This document shows positions 50,857 to 57,357 of a stretch of DNA of 64,000 nucleotides, piece after piece (position 1 is the first letter of the stretch; each line of letters starts with the position of its first letter). The translations under genes and the position numbers were made by a program. The DNA comes from Halovenus rubra (GTDB lineage Archaea > Halobacteriota > Halobacteria > Halobacteriales > Haloarculaceae), in assembly GCF_026586665.1 (NCBI RefSeq), contig NZ_JAODIY010000048.1:1-64000 (forward strand), given 5' to 3'. Below the pieces are notes generated by a model that ran no database searches, was not told the origin of the DNA, and saw only the letters and a list, made by a program, of their open reading frames with translations.

Positions 50857-51150
50857 ACCCGAGTACAAGATGCCAGCTGGTTTATATTCACTGGATACTC
50901 TCATACTGACAAGTTACAGATAGTTCGTGTGTCGCAGCAAAGAAAGCGCATGCAGCCAACGATGTGAGCAGAGGGTGACCCAATTGGCACCGAGAGAATG
51001 TCGGTGTTAATCGAAGCGCCAGCAGGTGCGTCAGACACAGATTCAAATAGGAGGAGATACTGGACCTCAACAGAGTGCAACCCCGTGGCAGACACGGCCG
51101 AAACACAGACATACCTCGCTACTCAACAGACCCAACATCAATCCACACTT

Positions 51151-52326
51151 ATGAAGCTTGCAACAATCGGTGTCGGTAACGCCGGCACAAAGATTCTTGA
51201 CCGGATGCTGGAGTTCGAAGATAAGACGAATCGAAGCCTCTGTCGACACGCAATGGCAATCAACACCGCCCGGACAGACCTTGCCAAACCGGATTTTATT
51301 CCACCGGAGCGGCGTGTCCTCATCGGCGATACACATCAAGGGGCAAAGGGCCACGGTGTTGGCGGCGATGTCGAAGTCGGCGCTGATGTCGCAAAGACCG
51401 AGATTGAGGAGATTCGCCGGGCGTTCGACGACGTAGAAATTCACGACGTAGACGCCCTTCTCGTCTCCGCCGGTCTCGGTGGCGGTACCGGCAGCGGTGC
51501 CGGTCCAGTCGTCATCGATGAACTACAGAAGATGTACGATGAACCGGTGTATGGACTGGGGGTTCTCCCAGGCGAGTACGAGGGTGGCCGTCCCGCACTG
51601 AACGCGGCCCGGTCACTGCAGTCGTTCGTTACGAAAGTCGACAATTTTGTCGCCTTCGATAACGACGCCTGGCGCGCTCGTGACCAGACCATCGAAGAAG
51701 GGTACGACGAGATGAACGGCGAGTTGGCGACTCGTATCGTCACACTCCTCGCTGCGGGCGAGAAAGACGATACAGACGTCGCAGAGAACGTGATGGACTC
51801 CAGTGACATCATGCGGACGCTTGATACCGGCGGTATCTCTTCGATTGGCTATGCTTCGAGCCCAGTCGACGCACAGAAAGGGCTTATCGGACGGTTCCGA
51901 GAAGACGACGAAGAGTTCAACGCTGATGAGGCAACCGACGCGACAAAAATCAAGGGCCTCGTCCGCCGTGCGGTTAACTCCCGGCTGACGATTCCCTGTG
52001 AGGTATCGAGTGCCGACCGCGTATTGGTAGTCATCTCGGGTCCCCCAGAGATGTTCGCCAGAAAAGGGCTCGAAAGCGCCCGCCAGTGGCTCGAAGACAC
52101 CGCAGATACCGTCGAGGTACTGGCCGGCGACGACCCACGAGAGAATGCAACCGAACTGGCCGCGGCCGTCCTGCTCTCGAACGTGACTGAGACCCCGCGT
52201 GTCGATGAGATTCAGGACCAAGCGGTCGACGCACAGAACAAGATTCAGGAACTTGACGCAGTCCGTGAGCAAGAAATCGAGGAGCTCATCACGGATGACG
52301 ATGACGAACTCGACCCGGTTGTCTAA
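51151..52326 (+). CDS. cetZ: CetZ tubulin-like protein, copy 1
   Basis: A 391-residue tubulin/FtsZ-superfamily GTPase of the CetZ group, which controls cell shape and motility in haloarchaea. The N-terminal nucleotide region is GVGNAGTK (7-14). The tubulin signature GGGTGSG is at 110-116. The T7-like loop is ENVMDSSDIMRTLD with acidic Asp216 and Asp219. The tail is acidic (TDDDDELDPVV), as in known CetZ. The start is the conserved MKLATIG; the upstream in-frame extension is not conserved. Confidence 0.93.
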   Translation: MKLATIGVGNAGTKILDRMLEFEDKTNRSLCRHAMAINTARTDLAKPDFIPPERRVLIGDTHQGAKGHGVGGDVEVGADVAKTEIEEIRRAFDDVEIHDVDALLVSAGLGGGTGSGAGPVVIDELQKMYDEPVYGLGVLPGEYEGGRPALNAARSLQSFVTKVDNFVAFDNDAWRARDQTIEEGYDEMNGELATRIVTLLAAGEKDDTDVAENVMDSSDIMRTLDTGGISSIGYASSPVDAQKGLIGRFREDDEEFNADEATDATKIKGLVRRAVNSRLTIPCEVSSADRVLVVISGPPEMFARKGLESARQWLEDTADTVEVLAGDDPRENATELAAAVLLSNVTETPRVDEIQDQAVDAQNKIQELDAVREQEIEELITDDDDELDPVV

Positions 52327-52368
52327 CCGTGACGACAGTATCCGAGAGGTCAGTACGGTGATACCGAT

Positions 52369-53505
52369 ATGAAATTCGCACTCGTCGGCGTCGGGGGTGC
52401 AGGAGGCCGAATCGTTGACCGACTCCATGAGGAGGAAGCTGCAACCGGTCGGTCGTTTTCGAACGGGAGCCTTCTCGCCTTCGATACGGACCGCTCGGCG
52501 TTCGAGGGAATGGACCATATTCCGCTGGACAGACATATCCTTGTCGGCGACACTCATCCCGACATCCGCGGGGAAGGTGTCGACGGCGATATCGAGCTTG
52601 CAGTCTCAGTTGCTCGTGAGGACCGCAACGAACTTCACCGAGAGTTCGACAAGCTCAAACTCCACGAACTTGACGCAGTCGTACTCGTTGGTGGGCTCGC
52701 TGGAGGCACCGGCGGTGGCCTCGGCGCGGTTATCCTGGAGAGCCTCCAGACGCTGACCGACATTCCAGTGTATGCTATCGGCGTTCTTCCTGACGGCGGC
52801 GAACCCGACCAACACATCGTAAACGCAGCCGAATCGCTTCAGTCATTTGTTCGCCTTGCCGACAGCGTCATCCTCTTTGATAATGACGCGTGGCACGACA
52901 GCGCCGACACCCTTGAAACAGCGTATGACAGTTTGAACGATGGGCTTGCCCAACGAGTAAGCGCAATGCTTGGGCTGAATGAACTTGCGGATGCCGACAT
53001 CGCCGAGAACACGCTGGACTCAAGCGACCTGATAAAGACACTTGATAGCGGTGGTATTTCGGTAATCGGACAGGCAACTGTCGAGTTAGAAGACAGCGGG
53101 TTCTTTGACCGAATCGTCTCGCTGTTCCGGAACGGTGATGAGACTGAAGACGATGGGACGACGACGACGCTTGCGATGCGAACACAGGACCTCGTCCAAG
53201 AGGCAACAACGCGAAACCTGACAACCCCCTGTGAGATGTCAAGTACAGACCGTGGGCTCCTGCTCGTTTCCGGGCCGGCGGAGGAAATTTCACGGAAAGG
53301 CTTCGAGAGTGGTCGCTACTGGCTCGAACAAGAGAGTGACGCAGCCGAGGTGTTTGCGGGCGACGAGCCACGGCCGAACGGATCGACAGTCACCGCGAGT
53401 GTTCTCCTCTCAAACGTGACTGAAATTCCACGAGTCGACCGGCTCAAAGAGCGCGCAGTCGAGGCAAAACAGACGTCTACCAGCAAGCACCAGCCACAAG
53501 ACTGA
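52369..53505 (+). CDS. CetZ-like protein, copy 2 (diverged)
   Basis: A 378-residue paralogue 42 bases after the first cetZ. Shared blocks include GVLP, LQSFV, FDNDAWH, DSSDLIKTLDSGGIS, LLSNVTEIPRVD. The signature loop is AGGTGGG (111-117) instead of GGGTGSG, the N-terminus is GVGGAGG (7-13), and the acidic tail is replaced by a short TSTSKHQPQD end. It probably co-polymerises with or regulates the first copy; whether it hydrolyses GTP is unclear. Confidence 0.9.
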   Translation: MKFALVGVGGAGGRIVDRLHEEEAATGRSFSNGSLLAFDTDRSAFEGMDHIPLDRHILVGDTHPDIRGEGVDGDIELAVSVAREDRNELHREFDKLKLHELDAVVLVGGLAGGTGGGLGAVILESLQTLTDIPVYAIGVLPDGGEPDQHIVNAAESLQSFVRLADSVILFDNDAWHDSADTLETAYDSLNDGLAQRVSAMLGLNELADADIAENTLDSSDLIKTLDSGGISVIGQATVELEDSGFFDRIVSLFRNGDETEDDGTTTTLAMRTQDLVQEATTRNLTTPCEMSSTDRGLLLVSGPAEEISRKGFESGRYWLEQESDAAEVFAGDEPRPNGSTVTASVLLSNVTEIPRVDRLKERAVEAKQTSTSKHQPQD

Positions 53506-54627: not shown

Positions 54628-57357
54628 ATGGGAAATCCCTCCATCTCCCGCCGAGAGTTTGCCGCCCTCTCCGCTGGGGCTGCCGGTGCAGTCCTCGGGA
54701 CTGGTACCGCTACGAGCCGGTCGTTTTCAGCTGTAGAAACGACCCCGCGCTACGAGTTTCTGTTGAACAACGTCGAAGACGACCACACAATTCCAACGCT
54801 GGTCACGTTCACAGACGACTCTGGATACGACGTACTCGCGGAACACGTGCCATCGTACCGGAGTCATGAAGCTGACCTCGCTGCCTACGCAAAACTGGTT
54901 CCCAAGGACGCACGAGCAGTCGTCGAGGCAGAACCGACCGAACAAGTCGAGTACGCGCCCGGGTCCAACCCCTTCTGGAAACTCGATAAGTACGGCGATG
55001 GTGTCTTCCTTGACCCCGAGGATAGTGTCGATTTCATCGGGCTAGAAGAGGCTCGCTCCGGCGTCGAGTTTCTCGAACAGCGCCATGGTGACCGTCTGAA
55101 CGTCCGGACTCACGGGAACGGACCCGGACACGAGAATCTCTATCAAGAAACAACAGACCCACGCGATGTCTGGACACTCGAGGTCACAGAGAACATCGGT
55201 GATACGGCCACATTCGCCGAGAAGGAGAAACTGGTCTTTATGATGAGCGTTCACGGCGACGAACGCGCGGGAATCGAGGCCGGCCTCCGATTTGTCGAAG
55301 AGATACTGGACGGACAGCGAGCTGACATCGAAGAGCTTCTCTCGGAGTTTGTGCTTCTCTTTGTCAGCCCCAACCCCGGTGGCTGGGTTGTCAGGGAGCC
55401 GATATACGATAATCCGACTGAGCCGCCGGACTTCCGTCGTTTCAATGCTGCGGGGCTTGACCCGAACCGTCAGTATCCCGTCCCGGGCTGGATTCTGCCG
55501 AGCTATGCACCGGGGGAGCCAGATGGGTCAAACCTCGTCGATGATGATATCGGCGACGTAGACGACGACGTTCCTGACAACAGTAGCGAGCAAACACCCG
55601 ATACACTCGCCGTTGTCGACCACCTCCGGACCTACGAGAACGTCGAGTATCTGCTAGACCTACACGGGATGTACGCAAATTCGAGTGCAATCGCTTCGCT
55701 GACACCCGCTGGTGGGACACCCAGTGACCGGGCTGGGATGGAACTTCTCAACCGTACACTGAAACGGAATATAGAATCTTCACTCGGGTCGGTTGACAGG
55801 TGGCAAGACACGTTTGAGACTGCAGTCGAGGATTACGAGAATCAGGATGCCTGCCAGTACAACGGGTTCTGTGAGACACCGGAGACCCTGTTCGAGTACG
55901 GGTCAGCATTGGATTTGTTCGGCTACACGCCAACGGGTGCTATCGATAGCTGGGCAGTCACCCCAGAGTCGAAAGGCGGTCTTGGAGCGACAGCACTGAC
56001 ACTCGAAATCGTGTTCGCCAACTCTTTTCCCGAAGACATGCGGGTCAGTTTCCTGCCAGAGATAACCCGCTTTCACCTCGAGGCGTACGGGACCGCAATC
56101 GAGACGACAATCAGACAGGCAGCCAACGAAGTAGATGGGGCAGTGGCAACCGGGGAGCGGTCGACCGCTTACCTCGAAAGTGACAGTCTCACCCGGTCCT
56201 CGGCTGACCTGTCCTACGTCGGAGCGGGGGAAGCGGTTGCCGGTGGCGTTGGCACAGCAAGCCCGGTCGGTGGCGAGTATGTTCACAAGACCAGAGTATT
56301 CGGCGGCAAAGGGACGATTGATGCAGGGACCACACAGCTGACCGCAACCGAAAACACACCCGACCCGGAAGCGGTATTCGGCTACCAGCAACAGGAGTAC
56401 GAGGTGACACCGCTGTCAGTCTTCGAAACGCTTGCCGACTACGCTGACGCACCTGTTGAACCGGTTGGTGCCGACGAGATTCGCGGCGGTACACTGGTTG
56501 CAGATGGCACTCCGACGTACGATAACCTCGTGGTCTGTCATGACGACAGTATCGATACGGCGTTCCTGACGGCGCTGACGGAGTATGTCGAGGCTGGCGG
56601 GAATCTCGTGTTGACCGATGCGGGAGTCGAAGTCGCTGCTGGACTCGATATAGCCGGTCTCGAATCGGTCGACGAGGAGAGCGTTTCCCGGTCCGAGAAC
56701 AGGTTTCCCAGCTACGAAGTCGGTGATGAGGAGACACAGCAACTTCTTGATGACAATACAGGGTCCAAGTCGACCCGCGGGCGCTCTATCCAGGAACCGT
56801 GGAACTATCCACGGCTCGGATATAAAAGAGGGCAATCTCCAGAATACAGCGTCTCAGACTTTGCACTCGGCGAAGCTGTCGAGGTACATACTGGTCGCGA
56901 CGCTGCAGTCAGGCTTGCAAGCCTTCCAGTACAGGCAGAGCGTGTCGGCGTCCATCTGTTAGGGTCGCTTCTCCCGCCGGCCGAGCAAGGAAACCTCCAT
57001 CCATTTGGACTGTTCGACCACTCGCTGACGCTGTTTGGCTACCAGCTCCTGTATAACGCGTTGGGGTATCGGTTTGATTGTCTGCAAAACGGCAAACAGG
57101 AAGCAACGTTCGGGTCAACCATCGCTACGAAATTCGCCAAGCGTCCCGACGAGCAGACACCGACTGAAACAGCCACGCCAACGGCCACCGAAACGGCCGA
57201 GCCGACACCCGACGAGACTGAAACAGCAAGTCCAGCCGATGACGACGGCCCAGGGTTTGGTCCACTCACAGCACTGGCGGGCGCAGGCACCACGAGCTAC
57301 GTTCTCAGGCGACGACTCGACGACACCGCTTCGGATGAAGGAGTAAGTAGTGACTGA
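54628..57357 (+). CDS. Tat-exported M14-like carboxypeptidase with PGF anchor
   Basis: A 909-residue surface enzyme. A twin-arginine signal is at the N-terminus (SRREFAALSAG, Arg8-Arg9). The M14 zinc pair HGDE is at 209-212, a later ligand His lies in LLDLHG, and a candidate catalytic Glu in TLEIVF. Residues 560-850 form a second beta-rich region with a glutamine-amidotransferase-like look (GGNLVLTDAGV). A Thr/Glu/Pro-rich stalk, a PGFG motif, a hydrophobic helix and RRR form a PGF-CTERM anchor. It likely cuts peptides outside the cell. Confidence 0.88.
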   Translation: MGNPSISRREFAALSAGAAGAVLGTGTATSRSFSAVETTPRYEFLLNNVEDDHTIPTLVTFTDDSGYDVLAEHVPSYRSHEADLAAYAKLVPKDARAVVEAEPTEQVEYAPGSNPFWKLDKYGDGVFLDPEDSVDFIGLEEARSGVEFLEQRHGDRLNVRTHGNGPGHENLYQETTDPRDVWTLEVTENIGDTATFAEKEKLVFMMSVHGDERAGIEAGLRFVEEILDGQRADIEELLSEFVLLFVSPNPGGWVVREPIYDNPTEPPDFRRFNAAGLDPNRQYPVPGWILPSYAPGEPDGSNLVDDDIGDVDDDVPDNSSEQTPDTLAVVDHLRTYENVEYLLDLHGMYANSSAIASLTPAGGTPSDRAGMELLNRTLKRNIESSLGSVDRWQDTFETAVEDYENQDACQYNGFCETPETLFEYGSALDLFGYTPTGAIDSWAVTPESKGGLGATALTLEIVFANSFPEDMRVSFLPEITRFHLEAYGTAIETTIRQAANEVDGAVATGERSTAYLESDSLTRSSADLSYVGAGEAVAGGVGTASPVGGEYVHKTRVFGGKGTIDAGTTQLTATENTPDPEAVFGYQQQEYEVTPLSVFETLADYADAPVEPVGADEIRGGTLVADGTPTYDNLVVCHDDSIDTAFLTALTEYVEAGGNLVLTDAGVEVAAGLDIAGLESVDEESVSRSENRFPSYEVGDEETQQLLDDNTGSKSTRGRSIQEPWNYPRLGYKRGQSPEYSVSDFALGEAVEVHTGRDAAVRLASLPVQAERVGVHLLGSLLPPAEQGNLHPFGLFDHSLTLFGYQLLYNALGYRFDCLQNGKQEATFGSTIATKFAKRPDEQTPTETATPTATETAEPTPDETETASPADDDGPGFGPLTALAGAGTTSYVLRRRLDDTASDEGVSSD

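Follow-up and report, generated by a model that had tools for sequence, protein, structure and literature searches.

Two CetZ genes lying head to tail in Halovenus rubra, here called CetZ-A and CetZ-B (A and B), were shown by computation to descend by a single ancient duplication from a CetZ that belongs to neither CetZ1 nor CetZ2, and to be strictly co-inherited as a two-gene unit. It was also shown by computation that purifying selection acts on both genes and is relaxed in B, mainly on the nucleotide side of the protein. In our opinion, the pair may be regarded as a dedicated two-component CetZ module, in which B would serve as a built-in end cap or GTPase activator on filaments of A; this reading is put forward tentatively, and we would stop short of calling it probable.

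Both genes are found in the window, which is the whole stretch of 64,000 nucleotides analysed (Table 1). A sequence-only reading of the window had reported two CetZ genes 42 bases apart at 51151-53505, the first with the GGGTGSG signature and an acidic tail, and the second with AGGTGGG, a different tail without an acidic end and a T7-like DSSD loop. Translation confirmed all of this, including the acidic end of A (ITDDDDELDPVV).

Table 1. Features of the CetZ-A/CetZ-B locus in the window
Feature	Position	Strand	Basis
CetZ-A, conserved partner, 391 aa	51151..52326	+	translation, 20 aligned orthologs, orthologs 72-91% identical, Pfam, rates, dN/dS
T4 signature of A, GGGTGSG, residues 110-116	51478..51498	+	translation
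T7-loop DSSD of A, residues 216-219; Asp219 at the position of CetZ1 Glu218	51796..51807	+	
Intergenic stretch, 42 nt, with Shine-Dalgarno-like GGTGAT immediately before the ATG of B	52327..52368	+	
CetZ-B, fast-evolving partner, 378 aa	52369..53505	+	translation, Pfam, rates, insert survey
T4 signature of B, AGGTGGG, residues 111-117	52699..52719	+	translation
T7-loop DSSD of B, residues 217-220; Asp220 invariant in 40 of 40 B sequences	53017..53028	+	

The start of A was taken at the position used by 20 of 20 aligned orthologs, the mechanical open reading frame beginning at 50998. According to the translation and the ortholog alignment, A has an intact nucleotide site, Asp219 as the T7 residue and a C-terminal tail that is both conserved and acidic. 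In B, the T7 Asp220 and the H10 helix are kept, the T2 and T3 loops are altered and the conserved CetZ tail is absent, the window protein ending in the non-acidic TSTSKHQPQD. The T4 signature varies across B orthologs and mostly reads GGGTG[GS]G. Pfam models PF00091 (Tubulin) and PF21011 (CetZ_C) both score above the cut-off in A and in B, with CetZ_C E-values of 1.1e-64 and 6.6e-46, respectively. The closest solved structures are those of Haloferax CetZ1 (4b46) and CetZ2 (4b45); the match to 4b46 has E-values of 1.9e-113 for A and 5.2e-77 for B, and the best matches to non-CetZ FtsZ structures reach 2.4e-16 and 7.6e-11, so the nearest relatives are CetZ proteins and not FtsZ or tubulin. Judging from the Pfam domains and these structures, A and B are members of the CetZ family. 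The common strand, the short gaps between A and B in relatives (-1 to 142 nt) and the GGTGAT before B suggest that the two genes belong to one operon or are translated from a shared message.

Orthologs of A, 72-100% identical to it, were found in 21 of 195 genomes of the order (about 11% of the sampled Halobacteriales), and the identity gap below them is clear, the next CetZ in these 195 genomes being at 58%. B lies directly downstream in all 21 carriers. Among named genomes, scanned with two short conserved peptides of A by which divergent A genes may be missed, each of 48 A loci has B directly downstream or the start of B at the contig end; the carriers are Halovenus, Natrinema, Salinadaptatus, Halarchaeum, Halobacterium, Halopenitus, Salinigranum, Haloferax, Halorubrum, Halonotius, Halohasta and others. 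Among the 195 genomes, all close B matches adjoin an A, and B was never met alone; conversely, no A was found to lack B in these genomes or at the 48 named loci. A first scan of genome contigs with B gave no match, probably because B is too variable, and a scan with the A alignment worked. Such a head-to-tail arrangement, recurring in dozens of species, is far beyond chance. The single-copy sister clade never comes with B, and when 393 genomes were drawn from the phylum, a sample and not full coverage like the other genome draws, neither the pair nor the sister clade was seen outside the order.

The distribution of the pair is patchy, and the two genes pass from one family to another as a block. 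A is present in 8 of 18 Halovenus genomes, and two genomes of this genus rated 99% complete are without it. The pair is thus accessory and dispensable, being absent from most haloarchaea, including close relatives. The idea of a mobile or plasmid-borne module was dropped, since no A of more than 60% identity was present in the plasmid set and no match to B in the phage set.

Several loci deserve separate mention. In the environmental genomes A07HB70 and A07HN63, B is split into two frames and A is intact, which reflects either a real loss or an assembly error. In Halorubrum amylolyticum, a CetZ2 ortholog (locus L089, 12928-14050) follows about 0.3 kb downstream of the A-B pair, giving three CetZ genes in a row. 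Two Halovenus genomes have both the pair and a single-copy sister-like CetZ with 53% identity to A; elsewhere in the order, among the genomes listed, the pair and the single-copy sister CetZ looked mutually exclusive.

The window genome (3.57 Mb) has the pair on contig 43 and also encodes FtsZ1, FtsZ2, CetZ1 (contig 41) and CetZ2 (contig 2), A being about 49% and B about 40% identical to its CetZ1. The pair is flanked upstream by a MoxR-type AAA gene and downstream by the gene of the replication factor C (RFC) small subunit, both on the opposite strand. Next to the RFC gene, a zinc carboxypeptidase of the M14 type is encoded (54628-57357), which has 909 aa and carries a PGF-CTERM surface-sorting signal. 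In a comparison of neighbourhoods, no family was kept beside the pair in all lineages as a conserved operon partner. A membrane-type protein of about 250 aa without Pfam match, usually single-copy and present in 151 of 195 order genomes, is encoded directly beside the pair in several lineages: after B on the same strand at four loci and on the opposite strand at seven. In five genomes, all of one genus, the same gene follows the single-copy sister CetZ; in the window genome it is not linked to the pair (contig 48). The protein is possibly a membrane partner of CetZ, or its position may mark a shared ancestral site.

In the phylogenetic analysis, A, B, A+B and the single-copy sister sequences each formed one clade, both in a tree of 114 rows and in a careful tree of 55 rows. 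In the latter, bootstrap/SH-aLRT values were 98/98 for A, 100/99 for B and 100/99 for A+B, and CetZ2, with the ortholog from Halorubrum amylolyticum included, was a separate clade (100/100) that leaves A+B outside. The two proteins also fall outside the CetZ1 clade and have Asp instead of Glu in T7; consequently, they belong neither to CetZ1 nor to CetZ2, which shares the Glu. A local duplication, modelled by forcing A and B together, was rejected in Halovenus (p-AU 4.5e-6) and in the Halobacterium/Halarchaeum/Halopenitus group (p-AU 4.5e-8), with the caveat that the B branches are long and the AU test shares the model's pull between B rows. One origin of B agrees with two states fixed in B only, each in 40 of 40 sequences: Arg at CetZ1 position 14 and Phe at position 311. 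The sequence-only reading, which had asked for such a phylogeny and had seen in the pair more than a simple duplicate, is upheld here: A and B are two stable, well-supported sister clades that always occur together. Tree distances of A and B are correlated (mirror-tree r = 0.83 for 36 pairs, at most 0.19 in 2000 permutations), as expected of any linked pair; taken alone, this correlation does not demonstrate contact.

The acidic residue of T7 is Asp in 37 of 37 A, 40 of 40 B and 8 of 8 sequences of the single-copy sister clade; every CetZ1 and CetZ2 sampled has Glu at this position. The difference from CetZ1 after the two serines, which had been noted when the window was first read, is therefore real, 4b46 reading DSSE. 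As a mark specific to the pair, T7 Asp was rejected because the sister clade has it too; being common to both, it most likely predates the duplication.

The two partners evolve at very different rates. The tree of B is 2.9 times as long as that of A, and dN/dS among relatives is 0.01-0.07 for A, which is nearly frozen, and 0.05-0.29 for B. These values, together with frames intact in almost all loci, led to rejection of B as a pseudogene or decaying gene. In FtsZ and tubulin, the elements T2, T3, T5, T6 and H6 hold the nucleotide and meet the next subunit, and T7, H8, H10 and S9 form the opposite face, which in the tubulin superfamily reaches into the nucleotide site of the neighbour. We take this assignment of faces to hold for A and B, the loop names being carried over from FtsZ and tubulin and not from CetZ coordinates. 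With per-site rates that are relative within each tree, the nucleotide-side loops average 1.33 in B against 0.26 in A, and the T7/H8/H10/S9 face 0.44 in B against 0.46 in A. In B, the nucleotide side is thus about three times faster than the T7/H10 face (p = 1.6e-7), a result that was robust in 16 pairs without long T3 inserts, with another aligner and with other choices of segments. A showed no significant asymmetry between its faces, with low per-site rates on both, and CetZ1, CetZ2 and the sister clade taken together showed no such asymmetry either.

The same side of B takes inserts near positions 64 (T3) and 176 (T6/H6), 6-63 aa long and found in 12 B proteins each, the former in one group of B and the latter in another. 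No such inserts occurred near these positions in any A, sister, CetZ1 or CetZ2 protein examined. The B of the window has no long insert and a short tail, and its T3 changes are H to E and G to D. The glycine core of T1 and T4 is kept in B, and the base-contacting Asn in most B proteins; B has probably not lost nucleotide binding, and it may still bind nucleotide and polymerise. The conserved CetZ tail (ending in LDPVV in A) is missing from B; the tails there vary, and many of them are long and acidic. In Natrialbaceae these tails end in EF[IV]W, and in Halorubrum they hold F[DE]F; neither motif is seen in the window B, and both are possible short docking peptides.

According to the reading that we prefer, A would be a filament-forming GTPase, and B would use its conserved T7/H8/H10 face to dock on the nucleotide end of A and would supply its T7 Asp at the nucleotide site there. 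B would then either end the filament or trigger GTP hydrolysis at this end, and in this way could set the length or turnover of A filaments. The position of B on the nucleotide end of A is the simplest reading, since B keeps its T7 face and the nucleotide side of A is fully kept; given that the nucleotide side of B is free to drift and to take inserts, no further subunit need sit on top of B. By analogy with other CetZs, the pair may have a role in cell shape or surface organisation. The conservation of T7 and H10 in B could instead reflect B-B contacts or folding. To our knowledge, no cap or GTPase activator derived from a duplicated subunit has so far been reported in FtsZ, CetZ or prokaryotic tubulin systems. 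The broader picture of a two-component CetZ cytoskeleton, in which a frozen filament former is joined by a co-inherited, fast-evolving, end-binding subunit of the tubulin superfamily that has kept its catalytic T7 face and given up the contact on its nucleotide side, is a possibility that we regard with more doubt.

The first alternative is that B does not touch A at all, but is a duplicate with its own job, whose place beside A serves no more than common expression and joint transfer. The window genes on both sides of the pair are ordinary and unrelated to it, and transfer of a patchy pair between families as a block would alone be enough to give mirrored trees. Models of a fused A-B protein speak neither for nor against docking of B on A: since A and B share one reading frame in the window genome and many relatives, a read-through fusion is possible, and two AlphaFold runs on it, with 24 and 26 paired rows, folded both halves and fixed no docking or relative orientation (pTM 0.51 and 0.49). 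Against independence, A and B are not separated at any of the 48 named loci, which come from several families, though the flanking genes are not kept, and the asymmetry between the faces of B points to a specific lost contact and not to general relaxation. On balance, the absence of contact seems rather unlikely to us.

An obligate alternating polymer of A and B, similar to that of alpha/beta tubulin, in which each T7 would complete the site of the partner and the pocket of B would be non-exchangeable, is in our opinion unlikely. Strict co-inheritance with mirrored trees speaks for it, as does the retention in B of the T1/T4 glycines and, mostly, of the base-contacting Asn. The overlap or near contact of the two genes in several relatives would likewise suit production in equal amounts. 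The invariant T7 Asp of both proteins fits the mutual completion of sites but speaks against the tubulin parallel, because in alpha/beta tubulin one partner has lost the catalytic T7 acid. The 2.9-fold difference in rate is more than would be expected for equal subunits of one lattice, and the nucleotide-side loops of B, where the bottom of A would have to sit, are among its fastest parts and carry the long inserts. This evidence favours the one-sided cap or activator over a tubulin-like alternating polymer. The proposal of a heteropolymer or a regulatory partner, made when the window was first read, therefore holds as to partnership, in view of the co-inheritance and divergence of the genes; the regulatory partner fits better, and the alpha/beta-like form is disfavoured by the T7 acid in both proteins and the fast nucleotide side of B. 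That B is an antagonist removing free A or breaking A filaments, with an effect like that of SulA on FtsZ, seems improbable, because it is rather stable partners whose genes are so tightly coupled in all genomes, although the variable inserts and tails would fit a regulated inhibitor, and the one-sided conservation predicts the same binding of the T7 face of B to the nucleotide side of A, by which an antagonist is not separable from a cap by sequence alone.

For most CetZs other than CetZ1 and CetZ2, the role is not clear. A pair never found separated, made up of a frozen and a fast partner and changing mainly on one polymer face, gives a directly testable prediction on the division of work between tubulin relatives. 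Several carriers, among them Haloferax larsenii and Halobacterium sp. KA-4, belong to culturable genera, and standard genetics exist for Haloferax.

The diversity of CetZ, including a third haloarchaeal subfamily, and quasi-tandem genes of the related Halo.Tub group are already known. Brown and Duggin (2023, PMC9856176) reported a third, uncharacterised CetZ subfamily in Halobacteria that is separate from CetZ1 and CetZ2, and their main text refers neither to a tandem pair nor to a partner clade; A and/or the single-copy sister clade may be this subfamily. The main texts of the open papers searched describe no CetZ pair that is tandem, co-inherited and relaxed on one side. Halo.Tub proteins of Halobacterota belong to the tubulin superfamily and are reported to occur in quasi-tandem copies, with C-termini that do not match the CetZ C-terminal model (Santana-Molina 2023, PMC9871819); A and B differ from them, since both match CetZ_C.

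CetZ1 of Haloferax volcanii (4b46) has the same fold and CetZ_C domain as the pair, and A shares with it the intact T1-T6 loops and the acidic tail; A and B are distinguished by T7 Asp in place of Glu218, by their position outside CetZ1 and by their occurrence as a linked pair. CetZ1 itself, as stated in the text of PMC9856176, is a conserved gene usually located just downstream of nolA, near cofactor genes. CetZ2 (4b45), the second conserved haloarchaeal CetZ, belongs to the same family, and A+B are separate from it, the window genome having its own CetZ2.

Similarity of A and B to tubulins is far weaker than to CetZ. The pair resembles alpha/beta tubulin and BtubA/BtubB in that two paralogs of one tubulin-superfamily gene have diverged and yet been kept together, and the paralog clades are indeed always found together (48 of 48 and 21 of 21). 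In contrast to alpha/beta tubulin, both A and B keep the T7 acid, no partner being without it, and conservation of both faces was not found, as the asymmetry lies on the nucleotide side of B with its high rate and inserts. The A-B pair also provides an instance of partner evolution that is independent of alpha/beta tubulin.
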